Positions 10,791-31,978 of a stretch of DNA of 52,098 nt are shown here, piece after piece. The translations under genes were made by a program, and so were the position numbers. Source of the DNA: Quadrisphaera granulorum. GTDB taxonomy: Bacteria > Actinomycetota > Actinomycetes > Actinomycetales > Quadrisphaeraceae. The notes beneath the pieces are model-generated. The model made no database searches. It was not told the DNA's origin and worked only from the letters and a program-made list of their open reading frames with translations. The stretch is taken from the NCBI RefSeq assembly GCF_003149145.1, contig NZ_QGDQ01000034.1, forward strand, positions 1-52,098, read 5' to 3'. Position 1 is the first letter of the stretch, and each line of letters starts with the position of its first letter.

Positions 10791-10842
10791 CGTGATCATG
10801 GGCGTCCGCCACCTGCGGGGGTGGCGGACGCCCATGATCACG
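10791..10842. repeat. Complete REP-like hairpin, GTGATCATGGGC family
   Basis: A perfect 23-base inverted repeat (10791-10813 and 10820-10842) with a 6-base loop TGCGGG. The GTGATCATGGGC cores are at the outer ends and the GCGTCCGCC variable part is inside. It begins 14 bases after the GH3 stop codon and could act as a 3' end stabiliser or terminator. Confidence 0.92.
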
Positions 10843-10912
10843 GCGGTGAAAGGGGTTCCAGGACGCTCGTTGTGGACCAAGGTGGGGTCCGTGGCTGGCG
10901 CAGGGAGCGACG

Positions 10913-11518
10913 ATGCGCGGCGCCGACCCCGCGGCGGACCTCCCGCCTGCCGACCCGGCCCGGGTCGCCGACCTGCTGGAGGACGCCGTGAGCACCACTC
11001 GCCTCACCTCTGACCTCGCTCCCGGTGCCTCTGGTGGTGCTGGTGAGGAGACCGCTGCGCGCCGCCGTCGTCGTCCGTGGGTGGTGGCGGTGGGCGTCGC
11101 GGCGGCTGCCGCCGCGGTGGTCGCCGTCGCCGTGCCGGTGGTGAGGTCGCTGTCGCCCGAGCCGGTGACCACCACCCTGACCGCCGAGCCCTTCGACCCG
11201 GCCATCGCCTCGTGCCCAGGTGTCGCAAGGAGCCTCGGGTACGTGGACACGGCGTTCGAGGGGCGCGTAGCGTCAGTCGATGGAGATCGGGTGACCCTCG
11301 ACGTCGAGAAGGTCTACAGCGGGGCGCCGGGAGACTGGGTGGTCGTCGACGCGCCGAGCCAGGACGAGACGTCTGTCGCGCTTGTCGGAGGGTTCCCATT
11401 CACAGCGGGCCAGGAGGTCCTTGTTGCGGCCAGCGGCGGCGTGGTGGCGACCTGTGGCGCCTCGGGCCCGGCGAACTCTGCGCTAGCCACCGAGTACGTG
11501 CGCGCCTTCGGAGGCTGA
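10913..11518 (+). CDS. Membrane-anchored protein of unknown function
   Basis: 201 residues from ATG 10913 with AGGGAG five bases upstream. A soluble N-terminus of about 55 residues ending in RRRRRP is followed by one hydrophobic helix (about 57-78). The C-terminal domain of about 120 residues should lie outside the membrane. It contains two cysteines (IASCPGVA and VATCGASG) that could form a disulfide, and a segment VASVDGDRVTLDVEKVYSG that suggests a small beta domain. The layout resembles anti-sigma-like membrane proteins, but there is no recognisable zinc motif and no adjacent sigma factor. Function unknown. Confidence 0.65.
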   Translation: MRGADPAADLPPADPARVADLLEDAVSTTRLTSDLAPGASGGAGEETAARRRRRPWVVAVGVAAAAAAVVAVAVPVVRSLSPEPVTTTLTAEPFDPAIASCPGVARSLGYVDTAFEGRVASVDGDRVTLDVEKVYSGAPGDWVVVDAPSQDETSVALVGGFPFTAGQEVLVAASGGVVATCGASGPANSALATEYVRAFGG

Positions 11519-11532
11519 GGGAACGCTGCGGC

Positions 11533-11609
11533 GTCCCGTCCGGCATGCAGAAGTCGCTCCGGAGGCAGCTCAGGGCCTGACACCCGGACTTCTGCATGCC
11601 CGGCGGGAC
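11533..11609. repeat. Inverted repeat, TGCAGAAGT family, copy 1
   Basis: Arms 11533-11555 and 11587-11609 (23 bases each) pair with two mismatches around a 31-base loop. Both contain the core GCATGCAGAAGTC or its complement. It begins 15 bases after the preceding stop codon. Confidence 0.85.
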
Positions 11610-11626
11610 GGCAGTGCCCCCGCGCG

Positions 11627-11703
11627 GTGACGTCGGACGTGCAGAAGTACCCGTGAAGCGCCCAGCGGTGGCGCGCGGCGAACTTCTGCACGTCCGACGT
11701 CAC
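11627..11703. repeat. Inverted repeat, TGCAGAAGT family, copy 2
   Basis: Arms 11627-11648 and 11682-11703 (22 bases) pair perfectly around a 33-base loop. The GTGCAGAAGT core is shared with copy 1, while the outer part (GTGACGTCGGAC) differs. It ends 36 bases before the next gene. Confidence 0.88.
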
Positions 11704-11739
11704 GGGGTCCGCGCCGGGGCGGCGTGCGAGGGTGGGCGA

Positions 11740-12096
11740 GTGCCCGTGGAGATGAGCGAGGAGGAGTTCGAGGACGCCGTCGCTGACGGTCTCGACGCCC
11801 TGCCGGAGGAACTCACGCGGATGATGAGCAACGTCGTCGTCCTCGTCGAGGACGAACCGCCCGAGGGCGAAGAGGAGATCCTCGGCCTGTACGAGGGCAT
11901 CCCGCTGACCGAGCGTGACTCCGGCTGGGACGCCGGCGCACTACCGGACCGGATCCTCGTCTTCCGCGGCCCCACGCTGCGCGCGTGCGAGACACGCGAG
12001 GAGGTGGTCGAGGAGGTCGCCGTAACGGTGGTGCACGAGGTCGGCCACCACTTCGGCATCAGCGACGAGCGCCTCCACGAGCTCGGCTGGGCCTGA
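11740..12096 (+). CDS. Zincin-like metallopeptidase family protein
   Basis: 118 residues from GTG 11740 (GAGGG about eight bases upstream); ATG 11752 is an alternative. The C-terminal motif HEVGHHFGISDERLHELGW has the HExxH zinc site plus a downstream Asp, as in the small minimal-zincin family (formerly DUF1025) widespread in actinobacteria. The central NVVVLVEDEPP and LLGLYEG-like segments are also family features. Despite the zinc site, proteolysis has not been firmly shown for the family. No signal peptide, so cytoplasmic. Confidence 0.85.
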   Translation: MPVEMSEEEFEDAVADGLDALPEELTRMMSNVVVLVEDEPPEGEEEILGLYEGIPLTERDSGWDAGALPDRILVFRGPTLRACETREEVVEEVAVTVVHEVGHHFGISDERLHELGWA

Positions 12097-12134
12097 CGCC
12101 GCCTCTGCGGGTGGGGCGGGTGAGGCGGGCTGGA

Positions 12135-13214
12135 TCAGCCGCGCTTCGCACGGCGTGCGGCCTGGCCGGGGTTCCGCAGCAGGTCGAGCACGGCCTGCTC
12201 GACGGCTCCGTGCGTGCCGGGCTCGCCGAACGCCGCGCCCGCACCCAGCTCGGTGAGTGCGGGCTCGATGGTCGTGCCGTCCTCGAAGAGGTCCACCACG
12301 CGCGGGTCGACATAGGAGGCACGTGCCACCGCCGGCGTGTTGCCGAGGTACTCCGACACCTCGCGCATGGCCCGCGCCACCGCGCGCTGTCGCGCGGTGG
12401 GCGACTCCGCGGCGTGCGTCGAGACGGCCAGCGCCACGGCCGCGAGCACGGTGGCGTGCCAGGTGCGGAAGTCCTTGGCGGAGACGTCCTCACCGCCGAA
12501 CGCGGCCTTGACGTACTCGTTGATGTCGGAGCTGGTGACGTCGTGCCAGCCGGCGGAGTCCTTCCAGGCGAGCAGGTCGTCCCCACCGCCCCGGCGCCGC
12601 TTCATCACCCCGACGGCGTCGTGCACCGCGGCGTCCACCAGCCGCAGCGTGCGCCGCTTGCCGTGCTTGGCGGTGTAGTCGAACACCACCGCCCCGCCGG
12701 CCAGGCGCACGTGCTGCTTCTCGATGGTCGCGAGCCCGTACGACTGGCCGCTCTCCACGTACCCCTCACCGCCGATCCTGAAGAACCCGAGGTCCAGCAG
12801 CCGGAACGCGCACCCCAGCGCCCGCTCCCGTGGCATCCCTGACGCCGCCAGGTCCTCGGCCGCCCTCGCCCGGGCCGCCGGCAGCCGCTCGGCCACCTGC
12901 AGCACCCGCTCGAACTTGGCGCGGTCGCGCTGGAGCCGCCACTGGGGGTGGTAGAGGTACTGGCGCCGTCCGGCTTCGTCCGTGCCGACGGCCTGGATGT
13001 GTCCCTCAGCCTGCGGACAGATCCACACCTCTTTCCACGCGGGTGGGATGACCAGCGCCTTGCAGCGCTCACCCTCCGCTGACGACAAGCGCGCCCCCGT
13101 GGCATCGAGGTACGTGAAGCCCTTCCCCGAGCGACGCCGAGTCCACCCGGGGGCGTGCGGCGAGACGGTGAGGAGCTCCAGCTCCTCCACCTCGACGGCG
13201 ACGGCGACGCTCAC
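12135..13214 (-). CDS. DNA topoisomerase IB (poxvirus/bacterial type)
   Basis: 359 residues from GTG 13214. It relaxes supercoils by nicking one strand through a 3'-phosphotyrosyl link. The N-terminal domain contains GKGFTYLDATGARL, IPPAWKEVWICP and HIQAVGTDEAGRRQYLYHP. The catalytic domain has IEKQHVRLAGG, FDYTAKHGKRRTLRLVD and KDFRTWHATVLAA. The nucleophile Tyr lies in NTPAVARASYVDPRVVDLF. Active-site residues appear complete. It follows the DUF3140 gene by 7 bases on the same strand, so the two probably form an operon. Confidence 0.94.
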   Translation of the reverse strand: MSVAVAVEVEELELLTVSPHAPGWTRRRSGKGFTYLDATGARLSSAEGERCKALVIPPAWKEVWICPQAEGHIQAVGTDEAGRRQYLYHPQWRLQRDRAKFERVLQVAERLPAARARAAEDLAASGMPRERALGCAFRLLDLGFFRIGGEGYVESGQSYGLATIEKQHVRLAGGAVVFDYTAKHGKRRTLRLVDAAVHDAVGVMKRRRGGGDDLLAWKDSAGWHDVTSSDINEYVKAAFGGEDVSAKDFRTWHATVLAAVALAVSTHAAESPTARQRAVARAMREVSEYLGNTPAVARASYVDPRVVDLFEDGTTIEPALTELGAGAAFGEPGTHGAVEQAVLDLLRNPGQAARRAKRG

Positions 13215-13221
13215 GCCGCGC

Positions 13222-13569
13222 TCAGCCCCTCAGGGGGTCGTGGCCCCAGTTCATCAGCGAGTACCGCCAGCGGCTGTGCTCGACGTCGTCGTCGGGCCCT
13301 CCCTGGGCCTGGTGTCGCTGCACGTAGCCGACCGCCTTGCGCATGTGCGCCACGTCGTCGTCGGTGAGGTCGTCCTTCTTCGTGCGCAACAGCTCGACGA
13401 TGCGCCGCCCTGACGCGTGCCCCGTCGATTCGCCCGAGCCCCCGGACTTCTGGCCGACCTCGTGGGACTCGTCCGTGCCGAGCCAGTCCTCCAGCTCCTT
13501 GGGGGTCATCGTGACGGCATTCCGCCAGTCGTCCCAGACCTCGTCGAGGCCTTCCGCGCGCTGTGCCAC
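13222..13569 (-). CDS. DUF3140 domain protein
   Basis: 115 residues from GTG 13569, the only nearby start that keeps the conserved N-terminus VWDDWRNAVTMTPKELEDWL. The remainder, SGRRIVELLRTKKDDLTDDDVAHMRKAVGYVQRHQAQ then SRWRYSLMNWGHDP, is typical of DUF3140, a short actinobacterial family of unknown function often described as DNA-binding-like. It is a small helical acidic/basic protein. The 7-base gap to the topoisomerase IB gene suggests a shared role in DNA metabolism (inference). Confidence 0.85.
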   Translation of the reverse strand: MAQRAEGLDEVWDDWRNAVTMTPKELEDWLGTDESHEVGQKSGGSGESTGHASGRRIVELLRTKKDDLTDDDVAHMRKAVGYVQRHQAQGGPDDDVEHSRWRYSLMNWGHDPLRG

Positions 13570-13659
13570 GTGCCGATGGTCCGTCGGGCGAGACGCGAGC
13601 GCACCCCGGACGGGCCTGGATGCGCGCCACCGCCCGCGCGGCACGGGCATGCTGTTCCG

Positions 13660-14115
13660 GTGCTCGTCACCAACCACGTCCTGGCCGGAGCGGTCCTCGG
13701 AGCGGGTCCGCTCGCAGAGCGGCCCGTGCAGGCGTTCGCCACCGGGGTGGTGTCGCACTTCGTGCTGGACCAGGTGCCGCACTGGGGTGATCAGCGCCGC
13801 GGAGTCTTCCTCGTGACCGCCGTGTGCGACGGCCTGGCGGGTCTTGCCGCCATCGCCCTCGTGGCACGCGCGAGCCGGCGGCAGCGGCCCGCCGTCCTGC
13901 TCTCGGCGTTGGCGGGGATGGCCGGGGGAGCCTTCCCCGATCTCGACAAGCCCAGCGATCTCTTCTTCGGCCGGTCGCCGTTCCCGGCGCGTATCGACGC
14001 GTTCCACGCCCGCATCCAGCGCGAGAGCACACGGCGGATGCCGCAGGAGGTGCTGGTCGCTGCGGGTCTGAGCGCGGTGGTCGCGCTGCTCCTGCGGGGT
14101 GCCCGCAAGAGCTGA
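13660..14115 (+). CDS. Polytopic membrane protein, YdjM-like
   Basis: 151 residues from GTG 13660, with no Shine-Dalgarno sequence. CATGCT six bases before the start may be a -10 element of a leaderless message. Three or four hydrophobic segments are visible (about residues 5-20, 44-66, 75-90 and 130-146). The pattern TNHVLAGAVLG, then VVSHFVLDQVPHWGD, then GGAFPDLDKPSD (spaced His and Asp residues near membrane boundaries) resembles the YdjM family of putative membrane-bound metal-dependent hydrolases. Catalytic activity is unproven in that family. Confidence 0.65.
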   Translation: MLVTNHVLAGAVLGAGPLAERPVQAFATGVVSHFVLDQVPHWGDQRRGVFLVTAVCDGLAGLAAIALVARASRRQRPAVLLSALAGMAGGAFPDLDKPSDLFFGRSPFPARIDAFHARIQRESTRRMPQEVLVAAGLSAVVALLLRGARKS

Positions 14116-14122
14116 AGGCGCC

Positions 14123-14183
14123 TCGCCGGGCGGGTTCGCCCGGCGATCCGTCGTCCTCCCGTCAGGAGGACAGGAGGACGACG
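14123..14183. terminator. Tandem hairpins between convergent genes
   Basis: TCGCCGGGCG (14123-14132) pairs with CGCCCGGCGA (14137-14146) over loop GGTT. A second stem, CGTCGTCCTCC (14149-14159) with GGAGGACGACG (14173-14183), follows. Both lie in the gap between convergent genes, suggesting bidirectional termination. Confidence 0.65.
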
Positions 14184-14187
14184 ACGG

Positions 14188-14748
14188 TCAGCGGCCCTGT
14201 GCGACCTCGGCCGCCGCGGCGGCGCGCTCGGGGCTGCCCGGCTGGGTCGACTCCAGCAGGCGCTGCAGGTGCGCCAGCGAGCGCGAGGCCTGCGACCGCA
14301 ACGATCCACCGCCGACGAGGGGCAGCGAGGCGGCGGCGTGCTCGGCGGCGCTGCGTGCCGAGCCCGTCTCCGGGGAGATGCGCAGCGTCACCTCGGTGTG
14401 GTTGGCGCCCGGCAAGCTGTGCACCTCGGCCTCGAAGTGGCCGCTGCCGGGCACGTTCCACTCGATGCGGTCGAGTACCGGACCCTCCAGGCCGCCGGTC
14501 AGACCGGGGAGGCCGCCGTGGTCGTGCAGGTGCTGAGCGACCTCGCCGGCGGGCCGGGCGATGGCGACGGTCTGGACCACCGACCATTCCGGCCCGGGCT
14601 CTCCGACCCGCCCGACGGGCGTGGTCGGACGCTCTGCGCTGGTGCTGGTCGCAGGGGTCCGCCGGGTGCGCAGCAGGAGCCACGCGGCGACGCCGCCGAG
14701 GCCGGCGAGCAGCACGAGGGGGGCAGAGGTGCGCCGATCGGTGTCCAC
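14188..14748 (-). CDS. Membrane-tethered SRPBCC-like protein
   Basis: 186 residues. A short N-terminus is followed by one hydrophobic helix (about residues 9-27), then a linker and a domain starting EWSVVQTVAIARPAGEVAQHLHDHGGLPGLTGGLE. The phrase VAIARPAGEV plus IEWNVPGSGHFEAEVHSLPGANHTEVTLRIS fits the START/SRPBCC (polyketide cyclase-like) fold that binds hydrophobic ligands. The C-terminus is an alanine-rich helix with a ladder of leucines (LAHLQRLLE). Ligand and role are unknown. The start codon is ATG at 14748. Confidence 0.65.
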   Translation of the reverse strand: MDTDRRTSAPLVLLAGLGGVAAWLLLRTRRTPATSTSAERPTTPVGRVGEPGPEWSVVQTVAIARPAGEVAQHLHDHGGLPGLTGGLEGPVLDRIEWNVPGSGHFEAEVHSLPGANHTEVTLRISPETGSARSAAEHAAASLPLVGGGSLRSQASRSLAHLQRLLESTQPGSPERAAAAAEVAQGR

Positions 14749-14934
14749 GTGTCAGATGATGGCGCGACGCGTTCTGCCTGGCCACTGCGCGTGATCGAGT
14801 TGGTCCTGTCGGCCCGCGCCCAGATGGACCGCGCCCGGTCGGCCCGCGCTCGGTCAGTCGGCGCCCAGACGGACCAGGCGGACCAGCAGACGGCTGCCCA
14901 GACCTCACACGCCCCATCCGGGCAGGATGGAGCC

Positions 14935-15330
14935 GTGGCCGAGCTCGACTACGCCCTCCTGGCCGACTACGCGCGCGTCGACGCCGACGGCACGCTCACG
15001 GCGGTCGGTGCGCACCGCACCGTCATCGCCGTGTCGCAGCTGCCCGCGCAGCAGGTGCTCGCCGCGGCCGGGCGGTTGTGGATGGGGCGCCGGGAGCCGG
15101 CGGCGCACCTGTCGCTGTCGGCCCGGACGCCGGAGGGCGACGTCGGCACGATCTCCGCCTGGCAGGTCCGCCCTGGGCTGGAACAGGGCGAAGTGCCGGG
15201 GCGGGTGTCGGCATGCTTCGCGGTGGCCGTCGTCGCGCCGCTGAGCTCGACGGGCCCCCACGCGCTGGTGCTGTCGGTCAATGGCGAGGTGGTGGCCGAG
15301 CTGCCGTTCGGCGTCGTCGTCGAGATCTGA
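14935..15330 (+). CDS. DUF6941-like small beta-rich protein
   Basis: 131 residues from GTG 14935, with AGGATGG upstream; the frame is open further left, but that part is low-complexity and lacks similarity. It begins AELDYALLADYARVDADGTLTAVGA, which matches my memory of DUF6941 proteins (a cytoplasmic family of unknown function, beta-sandwich-like). It continues through LPAQQVLAAAGRLWMG and HALVLSVNGEVVAELPFGVVV. Nothing suggests an enzyme. The gene stands alone. Confidence 0.6.
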   Translation: MAELDYALLADYARVDADGTLTAVGAHRTVIAVSQLPAQQVLAAAGRLWMGRREPAAHLSLSARTPEGDVGTISAWQVRPGLEQGEVPGRVSACFAVAVVAPLSSTGPHALVLSVNGEVVAELPFGVVVEI

Positions 15331-15463
15331 GCCGACATCAAACCTGGCACCCGACCTGACGCCCCAGCCAACACCCCCGGCCGAGGTCTGAGAGCCCCGC
15401 ACCCAGAACCCCTCTCCGGGAAAAGCCCTCCGGAGCCGACCGCCGCGGTCTAGCGTCACCGAC

Positions 15464-16780
15464 GTGGGACGACCCGCCCTGGCGACAGGGGCCGCAGGCC
15501 TGGTGAGCACGCACGTCGAGACTCTCGACCCCGTCTCCGGGCGGTGGGTGCGCGCCGCCACCGCACAGGGCATGGGACGTAGCCGGTGGGTGGCCAGGTG
15601 TCGCCTCAAGGGCGCCGACGGCGAGTACCGCCCGGTCCGGGCGACCGGCCAGACACGGCGTGAGGCCGAGGCGGCCCTGGCCGACAACCTCGCGCGCCGT
15701 GCCCGCGCCGAGGCTGCCGCGGCGGCCGCCGCGGACGACCGCGTGACCACCGTCGCCGACACCGCCGCCACCTGGCTCGACGTGCTGGAGGCCACCGGGG
15801 CGCGCCCGGGCACCCGCGACCTGTACCGCCGCTCGGTGGTGGCACACCTCGTGCCGCGCCTGGGCATGGTCAAGGTGCGGCACCTGTCCGCGCCGATCGC
15901 CGAGCGATGGCTGGCGGAGGTCGCCGACAGGTCCGGACCCGCCGCAGCACGCACCGCGCGGAACTGCCTGCGCGGTGTGATCGACGTGGCCCTGGCCAAG
16001 GGCGTGCTCGACGAGGACCCGCTGCGGAGCGTCGAGCTGCCGGTCACCGCCGCGCCGGCTGCGGCCCCCGTGCTCACGGTCGCGCAGGCGGCGCACCTCC
16101 TCGTCGTGGCGTCAGCGGACGCCGACGCCGTCCGTCACGGCCTCGCCGACCTCGTCGCGGTGCTGCTGGGCTCCGGCGCACGGCTGGGGGAGGCGCTGGC
16201 GCTGCGCTGGGCCGACGTCGACGTTACGCCCGGAGCTGCGGCGCTGCGCGTCGCGGCCCGCTTGGAGCGTGCCACCGGCCGCTCGACCGACGTCCGCCGC
16301 ACCGCTGACGAGCGGATCGTGCCGATCACTGATTCGCTCGCGGCGCTGCTGCAGGCCCGCCGTCGGCGACCCTCGGCCGACGTCGGCGACCAGGCCCTGG
16401 TCTTCCCGACGTCGCGGGGCACCGCCGCTGACCCGGCGGCCACCACCCGCCGCCTGCGGGCGCTGTTCGACGCCGCTGGCCTGCCGGGTGTCACCTCGCA
16501 CGCGTTGCGCGCCACGCGCGCCCAGCGGCTGCTGGACGCCGGGGTCGACGCCGCGGAGGTCGCCCGGCTCCTGGGTACCTCGCGGCTGCGCGCCGGTTCG
16601 GTCATGACCACCGGCGCCGTGCCCGCTGTCGCTCCCGCCGCGCTCATCCCGCGTCAGCGGCACACCGACGGGGCGCAGGTCCCGTCGGCCCAACGGGGTC
16701 AGGACGCCGCGGACGGCGCCGCCGACACCTCGGGTGCGTCGACCGGAGTGTTCGCGGACGCCGGCGCTTCCAGCCGGTAG
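15464..16780 (+). CDS. Tyrosine-recombinase-fold protein lacking the catalytic tyrosine
   Basis: 438 residues from GTG 15464; TAGCGT ends 7 bases upstream, predicting a leaderless mRNA. The order of domains is that of phage-type integrases: an AP2-like arm-binding region (RWVARCRLKGADGEYRPVRATG), a SAM-like core-binding domain (about 95-190) and a catalytic domain with GARLGEALALRW (first Arg) and HALRATRAQRLLDAG (H-x-x-R box). The expected LGH is replaced by LGT, and no Tyr follows the HxxR box at all: the region reads SVMTTGAVPAV. The tail after that is low complexity. A frameshift does not restore a Tyr in the other frames. It is therefore probably inactive for strand cleavage; it may be a DNA-binding derivative or a decayed integrase. 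Confidence 0.8.
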   Translation: MGRPALATGAAGLVSTHVETLDPVSGRWVRAATAQGMGRSRWVARCRLKGADGEYRPVRATGQTRREAEAALADNLARRARAEAAAAAAADDRVTTVADTAATWLDVLEATGARPGTRDLYRRSVVAHLVPRLGMVKVRHLSAPIAERWLAEVADRSGPAAARTARNCLRGVIDVALAKGVLDEDPLRSVELPVTAAPAAAPVLTVAQAAHLLVVASADADAVRHGLADLVAVLLGSGARLGEALALRWADVDVTPGAAALRVAARLERATGRSTDVRRTADERIVPITDSLAALLQARRRRPSADVGDQALVFPTSRGTAADPAATTRRLRALFDAAGLPGVTSHALRATRAQRLLDAGVDAAEVARLLGTSRLRAGSVMTTGAVPAVAPAALIPRQRHTDGAQVPSAQRGQDAADGAADTSGASTGVFADAGASSR

Positions 16781-19011
16781 CGCACGAGCCGGGCCGAGTT
16801 GACCGCCACGAACACCGACGACGCGTTGTGCGCGACCGCCGCGAGCACGGGTGACAGCGCCCCTGCGGCGCCCAGCGCCAGCCCGACGCCGTTGACGGCG
16901 ATCGACGCGCCGTAGTTCTGGCGGATCAGCCGGAGCGTGCGGTCGCCCAGGTCGCGCAGATGCAGCAGGCGGCGCAGGTCGTCACCGACGAGCGCGACGT
17001 CGGCGGTCTCCACCGCCACGTCGGTGCCCGACAGGCCCATGGCGATGCCAAGGTCGGCCAGGGCCAGGGCGGGTGCGTCGTTGGTGCCGTCACCGACGAC
17101 GGCGACGACGTGCCCTTCCGCCTGGAGCTCGCGGACGACGTCCTGCTTCTCGTCCGGCATGACCTGCGACCGGAACTCGGTGATGCCGAGCTCGGAGGCG
17201 ACCGCGGCGGCCGTGGCGGGGTGGTCTCCGGTGAGCATGACGATGCGGCGCACCCCGGAGGCACGCAGCGTGTCGAGCACCTCGCGGGCCTCGGGACGCA
17301 CCTGGTCACGCAGGCTCACGAGGCCGGTCAGGACGCCGTCGACGGCGAGTATCAGCGGTGTCTCGGCCTGGGCCTGCAGCCTGTCCACCCACTCGCGGGC
17401 GCGTTCGTCGACGTCGACGCCCTCGCGGTCCATGAGGCCGGGGCTCCCGACGAGCAGCACGCGGCCGTTGGCCATGACCCGCATGCCGAGCCCGAGGATC
17501 GCCTCGCACTCCTCGTGGGTAGGGATGACGAGGTGCCGCTCCTCGGTCGAGCGGATGACGGCCTGCGCCAGCGGGTGCTTGGAGTGCACCTCGGAGTTGG
17601 CGGCCTCGGTGAGTACCTGCTCCGGCGTCCAGTCCTCGCGGAAGGACAGCACGTTGGTGACCACCGGCCGGCCCTGCGTCAGCGTGCCGGTCTTGTCGAA
17701 GACGAACGCGTCGACGCGACCGGCGGCCTCCAGGTGGGAGCCGCCCTTCATGAGGATGCCGCGGCGGGCGCCGTTGCCGATGGCGGCGCTGATGGCCGTC
17801 GGGGTGGCGAGCCCGACGGCGCAGGGGCAGGCGATGAGCAGCATCGTCATGGCGCGGCGCACGTCGCGGGTGACCACGAGCACGCCCAGGGCGAGAGCGA
17901 ACGAGGCCGGCACGAAGCGGCGACTGAACGCGTCACCGACGGTCTGCACGGGCGCCCTGTCGGCCTGGGCGTGCTCGACGCGAGCGACGATGCGACCCAC
18001 AGCGGTGTCCGAGCCGGTGGCGGTGGCTCGCACCACGAGGCGCCCGCGAAGCACCACGCTGCCGGCGAGCACCGGGTCTCCCACGGTGCGCTGCACCGGC
18101 AGGTTCTCTCCCGTGAGGGCGGCCTGGTCGACCACGGCCTCGCCCTCGACCACCTCGCCGTCCACGGCGAGGGTCGACTGGTCGTGCGCGACGACGAGGT
18201 CACCGACGCGCAGCTCCTCCAGGGGCACTTTCACCTCGACGGTGCTGCGGACCGTCTTCGGGCCCCGCGCCGTGCTGACGGTCTCGGTGATCTCGCGCTG
18301 CACCCAGGCTTCGGTCTGGGCGCCGGTGAGCAGGTCGGCGATGGCGCGGCGGGTGCGGCGCAGCGTGAGGTCCTGCAGGTACTCGCCGATGTTGAGCAGC
18401 CACAGCACGGTCAGGGCGACGACGTTCTCGCGCAGCAGCAGGCTGGCGATGGTGGCCGCGGTGACCAGGACGTCGGTGCCGAGCCCCTTGCCGGAGGTGA
18501 TGGAGCGCAGCGCCCCCTTGAGGAAGGGATAGCCGGAGAAGATCGTGACGGCGGTGGCGACCGTCCGCGACGTCGGTCCGAGCAGCGGCGGGCGGCCGAA
18601 GGCGTAGCGCCGCAGACCGAGCAGCGCCAGCACGACACCGCCCACGACGATCCTCGCCACCTCCCCGTTGCCGACGTCGGCCGAGCGCGGCGTGCGGGAG
18701 GCCACGGCCGCGGCGTCCACGGAGGCCGCCGTGGCGACCGCGGCGCGCAGCTGCTCGAGAGTGAGCCGGTCACGGTCACCGTGGACGACGACGGCGCCCG
18801 TCACCGGGTAGGCGCGCACGAGGTGCACGCCGTCGAGGGCGTCGAGCGCGTCTTCGACGGCCACTGCGCGGGCCGGGTGGCCGCGCAGCCAGTCAGCCTG
18901 CAGCCGCACCCGTCCACCGGCGTCCGCGACGACGGTGACGGCGGTATCGACCACAGGCTCGACCCCAGACTTGGCCGCGGGCACCGCAGCAGCGTGCTGG
19001 CCGTCGGTCAC
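16699..19011 (-). CDS. ctpC: P1B-type heavy-metal-exporting ATPase, CtpC-like
   Basis: 770 residues from GTG 19011, seven bases after the PacL stop. A divergent N-terminal ferredoxin-like domain without CxxC is followed by membrane helices, the actuator motif (ALTGENLP), the metal-site helix ACPCAVGLATPTA, the phosphorylation site DKTGTLTQG, and MLTGDHPATA and VGDGTNDAPAL. This is the CtpC subclass of mycobacteria, linked to Zn and Mn efflux or metallation. Translational coupling to the upstream PacL-like gene supports that assignment. The last 82 bases overlap the convergent integrase-like gene; the C-terminus there is alanine-rich and dispensable-looking. Confidence 0.92.
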   Translation of the reverse strand: MTDGQHAAAVPAAKSGVEPVVDTAVTVVADAGGRVRLQADWLRGHPARAVAVEDALDALDGVHLVRAYPVTGAVVVHGDRDRLTLEQLRAAVATAASVDAAAVASRTPRSADVGNGEVARIVVGGVVLALLGLRRYAFGRPPLLGPTSRTVATAVTIFSGYPFLKGALRSITSGKGLGTDVLVTAATIASLLLRENVVALTVLWLLNIGEYLQDLTLRRTRRAIADLLTGAQTEAWVQREITETVSTARGPKTVRSTVEVKVPLEELRVGDLVVAHDQSTLAVDGEVVEGEAVVDQAALTGENLPVQRTVGDPVLAGSVVLRGRLVVRATATGSDTAVGRIVARVEHAQADRAPVQTVGDAFSRRFVPASFALALGVLVVTRDVRRAMTMLLIACPCAVGLATPTAISAAIGNGARRGILMKGGSHLEAAGRVDAFVFDKTGTLTQGRPVVTNVLSFREDWTPEQVLTEAANSEVHSKHPLAQAVIRSTEERHLVIPTHEECEAILGLGMRVMANGRVLLVGSPGLMDREGVDVDERAREWVDRLQAQAETPLILAVDGVLTGLVSLRDQVRPEAREVLDTLRASGVRRIVMLTGDHPATAAAVASELGITEFRSQVMPDEKQDVVRELQAEGHVVAVVGDGTNDAPALALADLGIAMGLSGTDVAVETADVALVGDDLRRLLHLRDLGDRTLRLIRQNYGASIAVNGVGLALGAAGALSPVLAAVAHNASSVFVAVNSARLVRYRLEAPASANTPVDAPEVSAAPSAAS

Positions 19012-19018
19012 CGGGGGC

Positions 19019-19303
19019 TCAGTGGTCGTGGTCGTGGCTGTGCTCGGCCGAGGGGGTGCGCGGCACCGGGGCCGGCTCGCCCAGCTCGGCGTGGGCCTGG
19101 GCGACGACGTCACCCGTGGCCAGGCGCAGCTTCTCCACGCCCACCTCGGCTGCGCGGGACGCGCGGATGCCGAGCTTCGCCGTGGAGACGGCCGTGCGCC
19201 GGAGCGCGCCGGTGCCGCGACCGTCGGAAACGGCCTTGACGATGCCCGCGGAGGCGGCGGCGGTCAGCAGGAGCCGACCCAGGGGAGCGACAACGGGGAC
19301 CAC
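19019..19303 (-). CDS. PacL-type (DUF1490) small membrane partner of the metal ATPase
   Basis: 94 residues from GTG 19303 with TGGAGG five bases upstream. The N-terminal helix PLGRLLLTAAASAGIVKAVSDG is followed by a basic amphipathic region (about residues 30-65) and a histidine/aspartate-rich C-terminus ending EHSHDHDH. This matches DUF1490 proteins such as mycobacterial PacL1, which sits directly before ctpC, keeps the ATPase stable in membrane patches and binds zinc through its acidic-histidine tail. Gene order, spacing and tail all agree, so I infer the same partnership here. Confidence 0.85.
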   Translation of the reverse strand: MVPVVAPLGRLLLTAAASAGIVKAVSDGRGTGALRRTAVSTAKLGIRASRAAEVGVEKLRLATGDVVAQAHAELGEPAPVPRTPSAEHSHDHDH

Positions 19304-19330
19304 GGCAGCCTCCAGGGGTGGAACGGGAAC

Positions 19331-23450: not shown

Positions 23451-23550
23451 GGTCACGAGTGACAGCGCGTAGCCCTGGCTGGCTGTCCGGCAACCCTCCT
23501 CCGCGGCGGGGTGCTCCAGGTGACGACCCGGCCGCGTCCACGGGCGCGGC
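23451..23550 (+). promoter_or_regulatory. SAM-IV riboswitch controlling the methionine importer
   Basis: The run GAGTGACAGCG, GCCCTGGCTGGCTG, CCGGCAACC (23487-23495), CCGCGGCGGGGTGC and GGTGACGACC has the conserved blocks and order of the actinobacterial SAM-IV class. The outer stem is formed by GGTC (23451-23454) and GACC (23525-23528). A further hairpin (CCGCG / CGCGG) follows. It lies about 130 bases before metQ in the same direction. It should sense S-adenosylmethionine and lower expression when it is abundant. Confidence 0.88.
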
Positions 23551-23680
23551 AAGAGCGGAACGACCCGAGGAGTTGCTTCACCCCGACGCCTGCTGCGCTC
23601 TGTCGCCGCACTCCTCGACGTCCCCGCGCTGACCCTGACCATCGGGCGCCCCGCGCGACCATGCACCACCCAGGAGAACC

Positions 23681-24682: not shown

Positions 24683-24683
24683 C

Positions 24684-25781: not shown

Positions 25782-25782
25782 G

Positions 25783-26451
25783 GTGGACTTCTTCGCGGGG
25801 TTCCTCGACACCACCGACGTCTACGTCCGGGCCATCGGCCAGACGCTGCTCATCGTCAGCGTCGCCATGGTGATCTCCGGCGTCGTCGGGCTCGCGCTGG
25901 GTGTGGCCTTGTACGCCACGCGGCCGGGCAACCTCTACAGCAACCGTGTGGTCTTCGGGGCGATCGGCCTGCTGGTGAACATCATCAGGCCAATCCCCTT
26001 CGTGATCTTCATTGCCGCGATCGGGCCCTTGCAGCAGCTGGTCGTCGGCTCCACCATCGGCACCAACGCCGTGGCCTTCGCTATCGCCCTGGCAGCGGCG
26101 TTCGCCGTCGCCCGCATCGTCGAGCAGTCACTCGTTGGCGTCGACCCGGGCGTCGTCGAGGCGGCGCGCGCCATGGGCGCCTCGCGCGCCGCGATCCTCT
26201 TCGGTGTGGTGGTGCGGGAAGGCCTCGGGCCGCTCGTGCTCGGTTACACCTTCACCTTCGTGGGCATCGTCGACATGTCGGCTCAGGCCGGCCTCGTCGG
26301 CGGTGGGGGTCTCGGCGACTACGCCATCACCTACGGCTCGCAGACGTACAACTGGGGCATCGTCTACGCGGCCCTGGTGGCCATCGTGGCGATCGTCATC
26401 GTCGGGCAGTTCCTCGGCAACCGCCTCGCCCGAGCCGTCATGCGCCGCTGA
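25783..26451 (+). CDS. metI: Methionine ABC importer permease
   Basis: 222 residues from GTG 25783, one base after the metN stop. Five hydrophobic helices are visible, with the EAA coupling loop VEAARAMGASRAAILFGVVVREGLGPLV. The pattern NIIRPIPFVIFIAAIGPLQQLVVG and VDMSAQAGLVGGGGLGDYA is typical of MetI. It forms the membrane homodimer of the importer. Confidence 0.95.
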   Translation: MDFFAGFLDTTDVYVRAIGQTLLIVSVAMVISGVVGLALGVALYATRPGNLYSNRVVFGAIGLLVNIIRPIPFVIFIAAIGPLQQLVVGSTIGTNAVAFAIALAAAFAVARIVEQSLVGVDPGVVEAARAMGASRAAILFGVVVREGLGPLVLGYTFTFVGIVDMSAQAGLVGGGGLGDYAITYGSQTYNWGIVYAALVAIVAIVIVGQFLGNRLARAVMRR

Positions 26452-26534
26452 CAGCTGCCGTTCGCGGCGACGTCGCCTACCCTCGAACACGGCCGCCGAG
26501 CACGCTGACGGCTTAGCTCGAGAGCGGGAGACCT

Positions 26535-27500
26535 GTGGACGGGCGAGCGGTGTCCACGAAGGACCTGCCAGCGGTGCGGAGCGCGCTGGCCATGATGACG
26601 TACCCGCCGCAGGCGGCGTCCGTCCGGGCCTCCCGCCACTTCGTCGTGGGTGTGCTGGAGGCCAGTGGTCGCGCCGCGATGGCCGACGACGTCGGCCTGG
26701 TGGTCTCCGAGCTCGCCGCGAACGCCGTGCTGCACGCCCGCACCGACTTCGACGTCGTCATCTACGAGGTCGACGGGGGAGTCCGGGTCAGCATCCGCGA
26801 CCGCTCCCCGGCGCTGCCGGTGCTCGTGGCGCCCAGCGCCTCCTCGATGAGCGGGCGCGGGCTGGCTCTCGTGGAACGGCTCGTCTCCCGCTGGGGAGCT
26901 GGGCCCTCCACGTCGTCCTCGGTGGGTGGCAAGAGCGTGTGGTTCGAGGTGGACGACGGCCCCGCGGGGGCGCCCGTGCCTGACGTGGCGGACCTGAGCG
27001 TCGAGGAGCTCCTCGCCGCCTGGAGCGATGACGTCACCGAGATCGCCACCGTGATCACCGCGCGGCAGGACGAGGACGGCGTCGACGTCGTCCTCCCCGC
27101 GCTGGACGCTGTCGAGCTGCTCGCGGCCAAGGAGCGCCTCGACGACGTCCTCCGCGAGCTGCAGCTGGTGCTGCTCGCCGGTAGCCCTGTTGCCAGCGCG
27201 CGCGGCCTCGCGGTCGCTCGCCGCCTCGACGAGGCCGCCCGCGCCTTCGACGACGTGCGCCGTCAGGTTCGGCGTCAGGTCAGCCACGCGGTCGCCACCG
27301 GTGGGGAGCGAGTGGCCCTCGAACTGCACCTGCCTCCCGGCACCGGCGAGCGCGCCGCCGCGTACCGCGCCGCCGTCGAGGCCGCCGAGGAGCTCGCGGA
27401 GGTGGAGGGGTCGCTGCTCAGCGTCGCCGCCACACTGGCGCGGCATCGGGCGGTGCGCCGCGCCTATCTCGACGAGATCATCGCTGCCACCCGCGCCTGA
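26535..27500 (+). CDS. RsbW-like anti-sigma-factor ATPase with C-terminal extension
   Basis: 321 residues from GTG 26535 with GGGAG upstream. The N-terminal half is a GHKL ATPase of the HATPase_c_2 type: N-box DDVGLVVSELAANAVLHA, G1-like VSIRDRSP and G2-like MSGRGLALVERLVSRWG. The second half (about 150-321) is an alanine/glutamate-rich helical domain of unknown function. RsbW-type kinases bind sigma factors and phosphorylate STAS antagonists, so the STAS gene at 20628 is a possible partner. It is monocistronic, and the REP-like hairpin follows 40 bases after its stop. Confidence 0.78.
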   Translation: MDGRAVSTKDLPAVRSALAMMTYPPQAASVRASRHFVVGVLEASGRAAMADDVGLVVSELAANAVLHARTDFDVVIYEVDGGVRVSIRDRSPALPVLVAPSASSMSGRGLALVERLVSRWGAGPSTSSSVGGKSVWFEVDDGPAGAPVPDVADLSVEELLAAWSDDVTEIATVITARQDEDGVDVVLPALDAVELLAAKERLDDVLRELQLVLLAGSPVASARGLAVARRLDEAARAFDDVRRQVRRQVSHAVATGGERVALELHLPPGTGERAAAYRAAVEAAEELAEVEGSLLSVAATLARHRAVRRAYLDEIIAATRA

Positions 27501-27540
27501 GCCGCCCGACCTCCCGCGACCAGGACCTCCTCACCCCAAC

Positions 27541-27593
27541 GTGATCATGGGCAGTCGGCCACCTCACGCGGGTGGCCGACTGCCCATGATCAC
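27541..27593. repeat. Complete REP-like hairpin, GTGATCATGGGC family
   Basis: A perfect 23-base inverted repeat (27541-27563 and 27571-27593) with a 7-base loop. The outer core is identical to the 10791 copy, but the inner variable part is AGTCGGCC. It lies between convergent genes. Confidence 0.92.
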
Positions 27594-27607
27594 GGAGGGG
27601 GAGTTGG

Positions 27608-30508
27608 TCAGGCGTAGTCCTCCAACGGGGGGCAGGAGCACACGAGGTTGCGGTCTCCGAAGCTGCCGTCGATACGGCCCACCGGCGGCCAGTACTTGTC
27701 CGGGTCCGGTCCGGCGGGGAAGGCCGCCAGCGCCGCGCTGTACGGCAGCTCACCCGAGAGAGCGCGCTCGGCGGTGTGCGGAGCCCCGCGCAGCGGCGAG
27801 GCCGCCAGCTCCCACTCGCCGTCGGCGACCTTCTGCGCCTCGGCCCGGATGGCGAGCATCGCCGTGACGAACCTGTCGAGCTCGTCGAGGTCCTCGCTCT
27901 CGGTCGGCTCCACCATCAGCGTGCCCGCCACGGGGAAGCTCGTCGTGGGGGCGTGGAAGCCGTAGTCGATGAGCCGCTTGGCGACGTCGTCGACGGTCAC
28001 GCCCGTGGCCTTGGTGAGCGGGCGCAGGTCGAGGATGCACTCGTGGGCCACCAGCCCGCCGTCGCCGGTGTAGAGCACCGGGTACGCCTCGCCCAGGCGC
28101 GTCGCGACGTAGTTGGCCGACAGCACCGCCACCGCCGTCGCCCGCGTGAGGCCCGCCCCGCCCATGAGCCGCAGGTAGGCGTACGAGATGGGCAGGATGC
28201 CCGCCGAGCCGTGCGGCGCCGCGGCAATGGCGCCGGTGCCCCCGGGCTCCGTGCGACGCGCTGCGTCGGGGTGCGCGGCGTGCGTGGGCAGGAACGGGGC
28301 CAGGTGCTCGCGCACGGCCACCGGGCCGACGCCGGGGCCACCGCCGCCGTGGGGGATGCAGAAGGTCTTGTGCAGGTTGAGGTGGGAGACGTCGCCACCG
28401 AACTTGCCGGGCTTGGCGTAGCCGAGCAGGGCGTTGAAGTTGGCGCCGTCCACGTAGACCTGCCCGCCCGCGGCGTGCACGAGCTCGCAGACGGCGGTGA
28501 TGCCCTCCTCGTACACCCCGTGCGTGGAGGGGTAGGTGACCATGATCGCGGCGAGGTCGTCACGGTGCGCCTCGCACTTGGCGCGCAGATCGTCGAGATC
28601 CACCGAGCCGTCAGGGGCCGAGGCGACGACGACGACGCGCATCCCCGCCATCACCGCTGACGCCGCGTTGGTGCCGTGCGCGGAACTGGGGATGAGGCAG
28701 ACGTCGCGCTGGGCGTCGCCGCGGGAACGGTGATAGCCGCGGATGGCCACCAGGCCGGCCAGCTCGCCCTGCGAGCCGGCGTTCGGCTGGACGGAGACGC
28801 GGTCGTACCCGGTGACCTCGGCCAGCCACGACTCGAGGCGCTCGATGAGCACGCGGTAGCCCTCGGCGTCCTCAGCGGGCGCGAAGGGGTGCAGATCGGC
28901 GAAGCCGGCGAGGCTGATGGGCTCCATCTCCGCTGTCGCGTTGAGCTTCATCGTGCACGAGCCGAGCGGAATCATGCCGCGGTCGAGCGCGTAGTCACGC
29001 CGCGAGAGACGGTGCAGGTAGCGCAGCAGCGACGTCTCGGAGCGGTGGCTGTGGAACACCGGGTGCTCCAGGTACGGCGTGGTGCGCAGCAGGTCGCGTG
29101 GGAGGGCGTCCGGGGTGCGGACGTCGAGGTCGGCCAGAGCCTGCTCTCCGGCGGCGCCGGCGTCCAGGCCGAAGGCGCCCAGCACCCGGGCCACCGCGCC
29201 GAGGTCGGTGCGCTCGGAGCAGGAGATGCCGACGTGGTCGGCGTCGGCCAGGCGCAGGTGGATCCCCGCCTCGCGGGCCGCGGCGACGACGGCGGCCGCA
29301 CGCCCGGGCACCCGGGCGAGCACGGTGTCGAAGAACTGCTCGTGCACCACCTCGACGCCACCCTCCCGCAGCTCGGCGGCAAGGACGGCGGCGGTGCGGT
29401 GCGTGCGCTGCGCGATGGCCTTGAGGCCGTCGGGGCCGTGATAGACGGCGTACATCGAGGCGACGACGGCGAGCAGCACCTGCGCGGTGCAGATGTTGCT
29501 GGTCGCGCGGTCGCGGCGGATGTGTTGCTCGCGGGTCTGCAGCGCGAGGCGGTAGGCCCGCTGGCCGGTCGCGTCGACGGAGACTCCCACCAGGCGCCCC
29601 GGCAGGTTGCGCTCCAGCCCCTTGGCCACGGCCATGTACGCGGCGTGCGGGCCGCCGTAGAACAGCGGCACCCCGAAGCGCTGCGTGCTGCCGACGACAA
29701 CGTCCGCGCCGAGCGCGCCGGGCGCCTCCAGCACGGTGAGGGCGAGGACGTCAGCGGCGACGACGAGCTTGCCGCCACGCCCGTGGACCTGCTCCGCCAG
29801 GCCACGCAGGGCCGGGACGCGGCCGGAGGCGCCGGGGTACTGCACCAGCACGCCCGAGACCTGCTCGGGGAGGGTGGCGGCGTCGAGCTCAGCGGCGGAC
29901 AGGTCCGTGACGAGCACCTCCACGCCCATCGCGGCGGCGCGGGTGCGGATCACTTCGATGGTCTGGGGGAGGGCGTCGGCGTCGACGACGAACGGGCCGG
30001 TCGCCTTGGGGTTGGCGCGGCGCACCAGCGTCATCGCCTCGGCAGCGGCCGTGCCCTCGTCGAGCAGCGACGCGCCCGCCACCGGAAGACCAGCCAGGTC
30101 GGAGACGAGGGTCTGGAAGTTCAGCAGCGCCTCGAGGCGGCCCTGGGAGATCTCGGGCTGGTACGGCGTGTACGCGGTGTACCAGGAGGGGTTCTCCAGC
30201 ACGTTGCGCCGGATCACTGGCGGGGTGGTGGTGCCGTGGTACCCGAGGCCGATCATCGGCTCGAGCGGCCGGTTGCGGCCTGCCAGCTCGGCCAGCTCTG
30301 CGGCGACCTGCCGCTCGCTGAGCGCCTCGAAGAGGTCGAGCGGACCGTCGGTGCGGATCGACGCCGGCACGGCCGCGTCGATGAGCTCCTCCAGCGAGCC
30401 GTGGCCGACGGCGGCCAGCATCGTGGCCACCTGGTCGGCGTCGGGGCCGATGTGGCGCGGGGCAAAGGAGTCTTCGCCGAGCTCGGCGAGGGTGGAGTGG
30501 TCGGACAA
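27608..30508 (-). CDS. gcvP: Glycine dehydrogenase (decarboxylating), P-protein
   Basis: 966 residues from TTG 30508, chosen because GGGAG lies six bases upstream and the resulting N-terminus ([13 protein letters not shown]) matches the family; the frame is open for another kilobase but that part is antisense to gcvT. The fused single-chain P-protein contains two PLP-fold halves; the second carries the Schiff-base Lys714 in [18 protein letters not shown]. Other hallmarks: [44 protein letters not shown] and [15 protein letters not shown]. It decarboxylates glycine and passes the aminomethyl group to the H-protein. A glycine riboswitch precedes it. Confidence 0.97.
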
Positions 30509-30579
30509 CAGAGGCTCCCGGACGCGACGTAGCGGTGCCTCCCCCTCAGTCACCCTCGGTGTGGGTTCCTGAGTCGCCT

Positions 30580-30675
30580 CGCCCGTGCGGTCCTGGTGCC
30601 TGAGAGGTTCCGGGGAGGGTTGCCCCTTCGGCGCCCTGCTCGCCGAGAGTTCGGCGTCAGGGCTCTCCCGCGCGG
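30580..30675 (-). promoter_or_regulatory. Glycine riboswitch (single visible aptamer) before gcvP
   Basis: On the minus strand the blocks GCGGGAGAG (near 30673-30663), CGCCGAAGGGGCAA (30633-30620), CCTCTCAGGCA (30607-30597) and AGGACCG (30594-30588) follow in the order of the gcvT-type glycine aptamer. It ends about 70 bases before the gcvP start. No second aptamer is evident, so this may be a singleton. Glycine binding should turn on expression. Confidence 0.9.
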
Positions 30676-30808
30676 GATGAACAGCTGCCCCCCACGGTAG
30701 CCCCGCTGGGGCCCCGGCAGTAGTCCGCTGCCCTGAATGGGACGCTGACCGGCGAGGATCAGCTCGCAGCAGCACGTCGGAGCAGCAGCACACCGGAGGG
30801 AGTCCGCA

Positions 30809-31909
30809 GTGGGCCAGGAGACACCGCTCGTAGGAGTGCACCGCGAGCTCGGGGCGAAGCTCGTCGACTTCGCGGGGTGGTCCATGCCCGTGCGCTACGG
30901 GTCCGAGACCGCCGAGCACGTCGCTGTGCGCACCGCAGCCGGGCTCTTCGACCTCAGCCACATGGGCGAGGTGGAGGTCCGTGGGCCCGAGGCGGGCCGT
31001 GCCCTCGACAGGGCGCTGGTGGGACGCGCGTCCGCCATCGGCGTCGGGCGAGCGCGCTACTCGATGCTGTGCGCGCCCGACGGCGGGATCATCGACGACC
31101 TCGTCGTCTACCGCCTCGCTGACGACTCCTACCTCGTGGTCGCCAACGCCGCCAACAGCGACGAGGTGGCTGCGGAGCTCGCCGCTCGCGCCGAGGGGTT
31201 CGACGCCGTCGTCCACGATGCATCTCACCAGTGGGCGCTGGTCGCGGTGCAGGGACCGCGCTCGGCGGAGGTGGTCGCGCAGATCAGCGACGCCGACGTC
31301 CCCTCCCTGAAGTACTACGCCGCCGACCCCGCACGCGTGGCCGGGCACGACGTGCTGCTGGCCCGCACCGGGTACACCGGGGAGGACGGCTTCGAGGTGT
31401 TCTGCCGGCCGGACGCCGCCGTCGACGTGTGGCGGGCAGCCGCGGCCGCCGGCGGGCCGCTCGGGCTGGTGCCCGCCGGCCTGTCCTGCCGCGACACGCT
31501 GCGGCTGGAGGCGGGCATGCCGCTGTACGGCCACGAGCTCACCCGCGAGACGTCCCCGTTCGAGGCGAGTCTGGGCCGGGTGGTCGTCTTCGGCAAGCCG
31601 GACGGCTTCGTGGGGGAGGACGCTCTCGCGCAGCGCCGTGACGCCGGTCCCGCCCGCCTGCTGGTGGGGCTGCTCGCCGAGGGCAAGCGGTCACCGCGGG
31701 CCACCCAGGCCGTGGTCGACCCGAGCTCGGGGGAGACCGTGGGTGAGGTGACCAGCGGGTCGCCGTCGCCGACCCTGGGCCGCCCGATCGCCATGGCCTA
31801 CGTGCCGGCCACCCTCTCGGAACCGGGCACCCGCCTCGAGGTCGACGTGCGCGGCAGCCGTGTGCCCGCGGAGGTCGTGGCATTGCCCTTCTACACGCGG
31901 GCGTCGTAG
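30809..31909 (+). CDS. gcvT: Aminomethyltransferase, T-protein of the glycine cleavage system
   Basis: 366 residues from GTG 30809 with GGAGGGAG upstream. Family features: [101 protein letters not shown] and a C-terminal GCV_T_C barrel. It transfers the methylene unit from the H-protein intermediate to tetrahydrofolate. It is divergent from gcvP, sharing the 300-base region that holds the glycine aptamer; that aptamer serves the opposite strand. gcvH is not in the window. Confidence 0.96.
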
Positions 31910-31933
31910 CAGCGTCACGTGGCCCGGCGACGG

Positions 31934-31978
31934 GGTGGCCAGCGCCCATGATCACCGTGATCATGGGCGCTGGCCACC
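31934..31978. repeat. Inside-out REP-like hairpin, GTGATCATGGGC family
   Basis: A perfect 22-base inverted repeat (31934-31955 and 31957-31978) around a single C. Here the GGTGGCC ends are outside and the GATCAC cores meet in the middle, the reverse of the 10791 and 27541 copies. The variable part is AGCGCC. It lies between convergent gcvT and the chemoreceptor gene. Confidence 0.92.

Follow-up and report, generated by a model that had tools for sequence, protein, structure and literature searches.

Gene-end hairpins of Quadrisphaera granulorum often share sites with sister species but mostly carry different stems

Introduction

The closest described counterparts of the elements considered here are REPINs and tagged repetitive extragenic palindromic (REP) dimers. 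REPINs, in the portions of the report cited here, are extragenic inverted doublets of a short repeat that form hairpins, with spacers less conserved than the arms, accompanied by singlets and clusters and falling into several sequence groups per genome (PMC3116915). REP dimers tagged with GTAG or CGTC occur head-to-head and tail-to-tail, as homodimers and as heterodimers with different stems, according to the sections of PMC3733652 that describe them; the word 'Actinobacteria' is absent from its main text. Template switching, as set out in the cited part of PMC8794818, copies one arm of a hairpin onto the other in a single event and so produces several 'compensatory' changes at once. Here we describe a family of hairpins found in a 52,098-nt stretch of the Quadrisphaera granulorum genome (hereafter the window), which is contig C34 of an assembly of 4.88 Mb in 86 contigs. 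Their REPIN-like anatomy is known from elsewhere; what is new is that sister species often carry hairpins at the same place with other stems.

What is unusual about the family is its evolution, not its fold. An earlier note, made from the window sequence, had known of no described family that behaves in this way. This needs narrowing: the anatomy is close to that of REPINs and REP dimers (PMC3116915, PMC3733652) and the copying of one arm onto the other has been described (PMC8794818), as far as the cited portions go, but none of the papers listed by full-text searches dealt with hairpins that keep their site and exchange their stems. Literature searches on the core sequence, on Quadrisphaera or Kineococcus repeats and on REPIN master sequences likewise returned nothing on this family.

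Results

The window hairpins are members of a family with a common 10-nt clamp

The earlier note had reported hairpins at 10791, 27541 and 31934 with a shared core, differing inner stems and perfectly matched arms, and we recovered all three, each with perfectly matched arms. A fourth copy, absent from that note, is a direct pair of units that makes no such hairpin (z -1.2). Gene calls here and below come from a codon-usage open reading frame (ORF) finder written for this analysis. The window copies are as follows.

149..170, minus strand: unit GTGATCATGGGC-GTCC-GCCACC, downstream member of a direct pair, without an inverted partner.
179..200, minus strand: unit GTGATCATGGGC-GTCC-GCCACC, upstream member of the direct pair, at a spacing of 30 nt.
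10792..10841, unstranded: inward hairpin, type GTCC on both arms (arm GTGATCATGGGCGTCCGCCACC), two 22-nt arms with 6 nt between; RNA fold z-score -10.3.
27541..27593, unstranded: inward hairpin, type AGTCG on both arms (arm GTGATCATGGGCAGTCGGCCACC); RNA fold z-score -13.4.
31934..31955, minus strand: left arm of an outward pair (31934-31978, arm GTGATCATGGGCGCTGGCCACC), type GCTG, clamps central with a 1-nt gap; RNA fold z-score -7.0.
31957..31978, plus strand: right arm of the outward pair, type GCTG, between a plus-strand ORF ending at 31909 and a minus-strand ORF ending at 32000 (convergent).

The copy at 31934 has reversed geometry, with central clamps one base apart and the variable parts outermost. 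Hairpins and direct pair alike are built on the 12-mer GTGATCATGGGC, which has 228 copies in the genome, the reversed control having 0; TGATCATG occurs 8 times in the window versus 0.41 expected by shuffling (largest shuffle 3). The 10-nt outer clamp, GTGATCATGG, has 405 exact genome copies, and TGATCATGGG tops the over-represented 10-mers in a 1.21-Mb sample of the same genome. The shuffles, the reversed control and the 10-mer over-representation led us to reject chance or low complexity as the source of the repeats.

A position profile of 195 units gives the layout: a C-rich stretch, CC, the clamp GTGATCATGG and then an inner part. Clamp and orientation are the most conserved parts of the unit, and the inner parts fall by eye into three groups ([GA]C followed by 4-5 variable bases and GCCACC; ...TGTGCAC-like; and CTTCCGGAGCAC-like). 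The profile holds no consensus GTAG or CGTC tag, and four monomers tested (three observed sequences and one composite absent from the fetched DNA) do not fold (z 0.14 to 1.0).

Units occur singly, in direct tandem and as inward or outward pairs. A census of 246 units in 61 sources (60 stretches of the same genome plus the window) gave 49 inward (commonest spacing 40 nt), 16 outward (11-35) and 37 direct (31 or 32 in 27) adjacent pairs; both members of a twin pair, L135:161 and window:161, were kept, and without one of them the direct pairs stand at 4/36. Single units make up 63 of the 144 clusters; among these singles, a concealed partner scoring at least 17/22 was detected in inward orientation for 7 and in outward orientation for 6. 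By inspection of the list, inner 8-mers span many types among singles, and few types predominate among clustered units. Unit densities from 52 of the 60 stretches are not genome averages, because these were picked around known hits; the 8 others hold 4 units in 160 kb.

Two further details of the units were seen. Between-clamp gaps of outward pairs, such as window 31946-31966, group near 1, 10-14 and 18-25 nt, and in 12 units the TGA stop of a predicted gene falls within the clamp (GTGA followed by TCATGG).

Hairpins at orthologous sites mostly carry different stems

When flanks were mapped between species, hairpins with different interiors were found to occupy corresponding gaps, bordered by the same genes. 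Among 48 orthologous hairpin pairs (flank identity 78-94%), both stems were shared in 2; both hairpins were perfectly matched in 13, and in 11 of those the stems differed. In 24 comparisons of the Q. granulorum genome with a relative, stems mismatched at 6.21 of 16 positions, versus 6.19 with sites shuffled within species pairs. The earlier note had seen stems change on both arms together; at orthologous sites what is found is mostly wholesale replacement of the stem. The idea that loops are kept while arms are exchanged was unsupported, as loops show no site memory. Two sites illustrate the pattern ('own' denotes Q. granulorum; M60 is a metagenome-assembled genome).

C5:176282-176332 (L042:8283): own GTCC/TTCC; NP160 GTCC/GTCC; INWT6 GTCC/GCCC.
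The same C5:176282-176332 site: G004, TTCCCGAGCA hairpin plus an extra direct unit; M60, GTCGTGCGCA/GTTGCGCACA hairpin plus an extra unit.
C51:11201 (L141:9202): own TTCCGGAACA; G004 CTCCGGAGCG/TTCCGGAGCA; G001 GGTCGG; NP160 GTCC.

The stem groups vary with the species: sorted into three groups with the rest unclassed, hairpins numbered 40/4/2 in the own genome, 18/0/1 plus 1 in NP160, 17/0/0 plus 1 in INWT6, 0/4/4 plus 3 in M60, 4/3/1 in G001 and 5/4/4 in G004.

The sites themselves are shared above background. In unselected stretches, 5 of 12 own intergenic clusters had an orthologous unit, as did 4 of 6 in the reverse direction (two coding cases were dropped per direction, and the directions share sites), whereas cluster density was 10 (G004) and 6 (G001) per 400 kb, a few percent of gaps at an estimated ~250 gaps per 400 kb. 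Of 33 collinear comparisons in which the site was occupied, counting seeds, 24 agreed in array arrangement, and offsets from neighbouring genes differed by a mean of 13.5 nt versus 19.8 nt when shuffled (minimum of 2000 shuffles 13.8; 25/37 pairs used). Some empty sites hold another long stem in the relative: among 27 site rows, 5 had a stem of at least 12. One of the 5, in NP160 at own L137:3729, is a hairpin of the same build in which both clamps are altered alike, to about GTGACCACGG. One orthologous pair, L037:1962 (own GCGTCC) and L202:11054 (G001 TCTTCC), shows two position-by-position double changes, present on both arms.

The direct pair at 149-200 is the window's own example of a kept site. 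In G004 the corresponding position (L192) is occupied by a direct pair with different inner parts. A near-identical twin of the window pair, located where contig C33 begins, likewise corresponds to direct pairs in both NP160 and G004. Contigs C33 (L135) and C34 are equal at 196 of their first 200 bases, a repeated gene end followed by the direct pair, and diverge beyond; this repeat may be why both contigs end there. Hairpins 27541 and 31934 are not examples of kept sites: the matching place is free of units in the relatives mapped (G001 and G002 for 27541, G001 for 31934), and the stretches around this locus from G001, G002 and G004 hold zero units anywhere. Gene content between the flanking genes differs there.

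Arm matching is strong and found mainly in close inverted pairs

Arms were compared in 116 distinct inward hairpins with two intact clamps from the own and related genomes; 15 loci of other genera or with doubtful matches were dropped from the mismatch, spacing and orthologous-pair counts. Covariation across genome copies, the check that the earlier note had put forward, is strong: 5-mer blocks were identical in 67/116 hairpins versus 14.8 when one arm was shuffled among hairpins (maximum 25 in 2000). With 21-38 nt between clamps, the inner 8-mer was identical in 59/116 inward versus 6/60 direct pairs, and within one mismatch in 85/116 versus 11/60. Identity was found in 0/9 inward pairs at 39-200 nt, in 4/6, 2/9 and 0/27 outward pairs at 0-5, 6-20 and 1001-4000 nt, and in 1/28 direct pairs at 61-4000 nt. 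As the matching greatly exceeds what chance would give and peaks in inverted pairs that lie close together, we tie it to pairing or to inverted copying. General local relatedness as its cause was unsupported by the direct-pair control, yet direct pairs at 6-20 nt reach 4/9.

Genome-wide, the perfect matching in every copy that the earlier note had stated does not hold. Over 12 inner positions, 49 of the 116 hairpins had no mismatch, 25 had one, 18 two, 15 three and 9 four or five, leaving 67/116 with at least one. At codirectional loci, mismatches were counted on the transcribed strand of hairpins that had one to three of them: 17 were G.U, 18 A.C and 12 of other kinds; with G.U about equal to A.C, nothing points to a preference for RNA wobble pairs. 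Inner 8-mers private to one hairpin stood on both arms in 5 cases and on a single arm in 36, so that, for the most part, new mutations have gone uncopied and uncompensated. Where the earlier note had proposed that pairing is selected or that one arm is copied onto the other, matching beyond chance and its link to close inverted pairs stand, but point-by-point compensation is unsupported.

Hairpins identical over their whole length, loop included, were seen in 3 pairs among the 116. In two of these pairs, both copies lie in a single genome: own L056:5912 and L138:10048 (opposite orientation, 4-nt loop) and INWT6 L090 and L117. Identical hairpins at different loci are what copying would yield. 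Among the 29 GTCC hairpins, loops resemble one another somewhat more than shuffled letters do (0.503 vs 0.602, minimum 0.577), which makes 'free loops' too strong a phrase.

At longer range, a common 9-nt inner word was found in 14 inward pairs with 66-4000 nt between their members; 8 of them are listed solo and bracket predicted ORFs. We considered transposon ends enclosing a gene as a reading of these pairs and did not adopt it. Separately, at L056:15296-17876 and L057:12424-14741 predicted genes lie in runs, each gene flanked by inward units with outward palindromes at the junctions; the runs have a locally common inner word (GCACCCGG in L056) and resemble small gene cassettes.

Units cluster at gene ends

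The positions of 194 units on 41 sources favour gene ends: 73 lie in convergent gaps (14.9 kb of such sequence), 86 in codirectional (46.9 kb) and 9 in divergent ones (26.1 kb), with 17 inside predicted genes and 9 at edges. For 124 of 168 units the upstream feature is a stop codon, at a median of 25 nt. Across all species the 116 inward hairpins divide into 61 convergent, 45 codirectional, 5 divergent, 4 in genes and 1 at an edge. Gaps free of units show the same bias in stems of at least 12 (convergent 17/68, codirectional 25/265, divergent 2/119; one shuffle per gap gave 0), which suggests that hairpins at 3' ends are a general feature and that the family is one of their sources.

In the window, hairpin 10792 begins 14 nt past the stop codon of a plus-strand ORF ending at 10777 and precedes a plus-strand ORF at 10913; hairpin 27541 sits between a plus-strand ORF ending at 27500 and a convergent minus-strand ORF ending at 27608, which we take to be GcvP-like. 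The ORF ending at 31909, beside the outward pair, is presumably GcvT-like. An Rfam search of the window gave 5 gathering-level matches, none at the hairpins. Elsewhere in the window lie a SAM-IV riboswitch aptamer (23451-23561, plus strand) and, between the presumed GcvP-like and GcvT-like genes, a glycine riboswitch aptamer (30578-30680, minus strand).

A GC-rich hairpin shortly past a stop codon is a trait of intrinsic terminators, and it is present here. Judged by their position, the family's members are probably two-way 3'-end hairpins that stop transcription, protect mRNA ends or do both, without a T-tract.

The clamp and its array spacing extend beyond the genus

The strict hairpin form has 36 copies in the own genome and 5-17 in each of all 5 sister genomes; it occurs in 2 of 7 genomes from other genera of the family (1 and 2 copies) and in 0/16 from other families of the order. 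Related hairpins in Quadrisphaera sp. INWT6 are among the matches listed. A class-wide draw of 394 genomes found GTGATCATGG...CCATGATCAC in 7: the own genome, three of genus g89 and three with one match each. The three g89 genomes, which belong to another family, hold 13-16 hairpins each, GTGATCATGGCGTT...AACGCCATGATCAC-like, and in 3 of 6 short pieces a direct unit lies 30-31 nt ahead of the hairpin. This architecture equals that of the own genome, so clamp and array spacing reach beyond the genus.

In G002 (NP160), NN assembly gaps fall mid-hairpin in several copies (contigs C46, C104 and C126), and short-read assemblies may break at these hairpins.

Other repeats in the sampled DNA

A second hairpin family in the own genome (L035:18940, L047:6451, L053:11580, L063:4405 and others) is marked by the outer arm GACGATCAAGGA, and its inner parts, which for the most part match, differ from locus to locus (AAGTTCTGCAC, ACGTTGTGCAC, AAGCCGTGCAC); its sequence CGATCAAGGA has 28 matches on both strands of the 1.21-Mb sample, some in genes. 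A REP-like self-palindromic repeat, CGCACTT[TG]CCGCGG[CA]AAGTGCG (L025:9284, L037:2729, L051:7051 and others), often forms dimers ~41 nt apart, with 51 pattern matches counted on both strands. Elements of ~150 bp that end in clamps and enclose an inverted repeat of AGATCTTGGCG lie at L047:3759-3905 and L034:4614-4770 (AGATCTTGGCG has 9 copies in the sample); four interiors of such elements, searched by BLAST against the fetched DNA, gave only self-matches and 18-22 nt pieces. The window also holds an inverted pair of GACTTCTGCATGCC (11542-11555, minus strand; 11587-11600, plus strand; 0 expected), part of a further dispersed motif, GACTTCTGCA, with 26 matches in the sample. In the unrelated genome of Allopusillimonas ginsengisoli, an identical 36-nt hairpin, GTGATCATGGGCCCTGATAGGGGGGCCCATGATCAC, stands at four places with similar flanks (L073, L087, L096, L099).

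Discussion

We propose, with roughly even confidence, that these elements are a REPIN-like family of resident extragenic 3'-end hairpins whose interior is replaced as a block. The building block is an oriented unit of ~22-32 nt starting with the clamp GTGATCATGG, two close inverted units giving a hairpin or palindrome. Elements lie just past stop codons, most of all where genes converge. The clamp and many of the sites persist across species, while the interior (inner arms and loop) would be swapped as a block, with replacement stems drawn from a small, species-biased vocabulary, and each new interior would then decay through mostly uncompensated point mutations. Replacement would probably proceed by copying between family members, through gene conversion or annealing at the clamps; local foldback template switching, which copies one arm onto the other, is probably an alternative or added route.

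A number of observations weigh against this proposal. Collinear sites other than the relatives' seed hairpins held a unit in 8/28 cases, one of the 8 inside a gene, a figure that is biased low. The interval corresponding to hairpin 27541 in G001 and G002 (~950 bp between the flanking genes) has no unit, and neither has the place matching hairpin 31934 in G001, where own 31911-34538 is not collinear. Identical inner 8-mers appear above expectation in inward pairs 201-4000 nt apart (5/18) and in the short-gap direct pairs, so hairpin proximity is not the whole story of the matching. Identical loops are scarce (3/406 loop pairs among the 29 GTCC hairpins). The site-memory and pairing counts cover hairpins with two intact clamps and are not independent, because comparisons share sites. 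As to a role in termination, at least 4 T in 8 followed the stem in 1/73 unit-hairpin flanks (2/66 for other long intergenic stems), and a T-tract terminator scan gave nothing at window hairpins 27541 and 31934. Finally, Y1_Tnp, the domain of REP-associated tyrosine transposases (RAYTs) and the sole enzyme family searched, was found in 0/6 genus genomes (two of them 91% and 94% complete), with control matches in 5/14 named genomes, and we know of no enzyme for stem replacement.

Some of the same facts could be read as turnover at hot spots, in which mobile hairpins are often lost and re-insert independently at few permitted places, so that orthologous sites hold unrelated copies. Stems and loops without site memory, a species-biased vocabulary, the many unshared sites, the strong 3'-end preference and the occurrence of a few identical whole hairpins at different loci would all follow. 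But occupancy is shared (5/12, 4/6) well over background density, gene offsets and array arrangement (24/33) are kept, and Y1_Tnp was not found; we regard this account as unlikely. A bolder form of block replacement, which we put forward tentatively and think unlikely, is a dedicated stem-exchange system: a recombinase or annealing process would recognise the GTGATCATGG clamps and overwrite what lies between them with another member's interior, keeping place, clamp and pairing while reshuffling sequence within the species.

The conservation of clamp and orientation over everything else in the unit also fits a site for a putative sequence-specific DNA- or RNA-binding protein at gene ends, with hairpins as paired sites and the interior as filler. 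Single units and direct arrays persist too, and a genus from another family has the same spacing of direct units, 30-32 nt or roughly three turns of the helix. On its own, such a protein would not account for the finding that matching of the inner arms is mostly a property of inverted units lying close together, and we know of no clamp-binding protein; we regard this explanation as quite unlikely. Selection on RNA pairing with ordinary compensatory substitutions, the first alternative of the earlier note, would let sequence drift with the arms still matched; the strong covariation and the pair at L037:1962 and L202:11054 speak for it. We nonetheless hold it to be very unlikely: G.U and A.C mismatches are balanced, private variants are mostly one-armed, and unrelated stem classes are swapped at flank identities up to 94%. 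A classical REP/RAYT system has next to no chance of being the answer, for although the elements are extragenic with a 3'-end bias and occur as inverted doublets, singles and clusters, the six genus genomes searched lack Y1_Tnp matches, the tested monomers do not fold and the unit profile lacks a GTAG or CGTC tag.

Covariation between arms is usually read as proof that RNA structure is under selection. In this family it is strong, but its pattern points to block copying over stepwise compensation, which makes the family a natural test case for separating the two. Its short repeats, moreover, often stay in place throughout a genus and exchange their interior, and they raise the questions of how hairpin repeats can spread in bacteria when no RAYT is present and what purpose they serve at the ends of genes.

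Transcription terminator hairpins occur between convergent genes and have symmetric, very stable stems. The hairpins of this family resemble them in location, symmetry and stem stability, and in some relatives an unrelated long stem stands at the site; they differ in having no T-tract and a conserved 10-nt sequence at the stem base.

Set beside REPINs as portrayed in the cited portions of PMC3116915, the family shares extragenic inverted doublets that form hairpins (17/194 units are inside predicted genes), a spacer less conserved than the arms, singlets and clusters, and several sequence groups per genome. It differs in that no Y1_Tnp/RAYT was found, tested monomers were unfolded alone, varied stem words stand on one 10-nt clamp, and sites are often common to species with their stems replaced (PMC3116915). 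REPIN-type amplification accounts for the shared words, but its enzyme was not found here. The head-to-head and tail-to-tail arrangement and the homo- and heterodimers recall the tagged REP dimers as PMC3733652 presents them in the sections cited; in our family no GTAG or CGTC tag adjoins the stem and the tested monomers are unfolded. Template switching, in the form given in the cited part of PMC8794818, accounts for arm matching, but in this family arms and loop change between species to words common to other loci, which goes beyond local arm copying.

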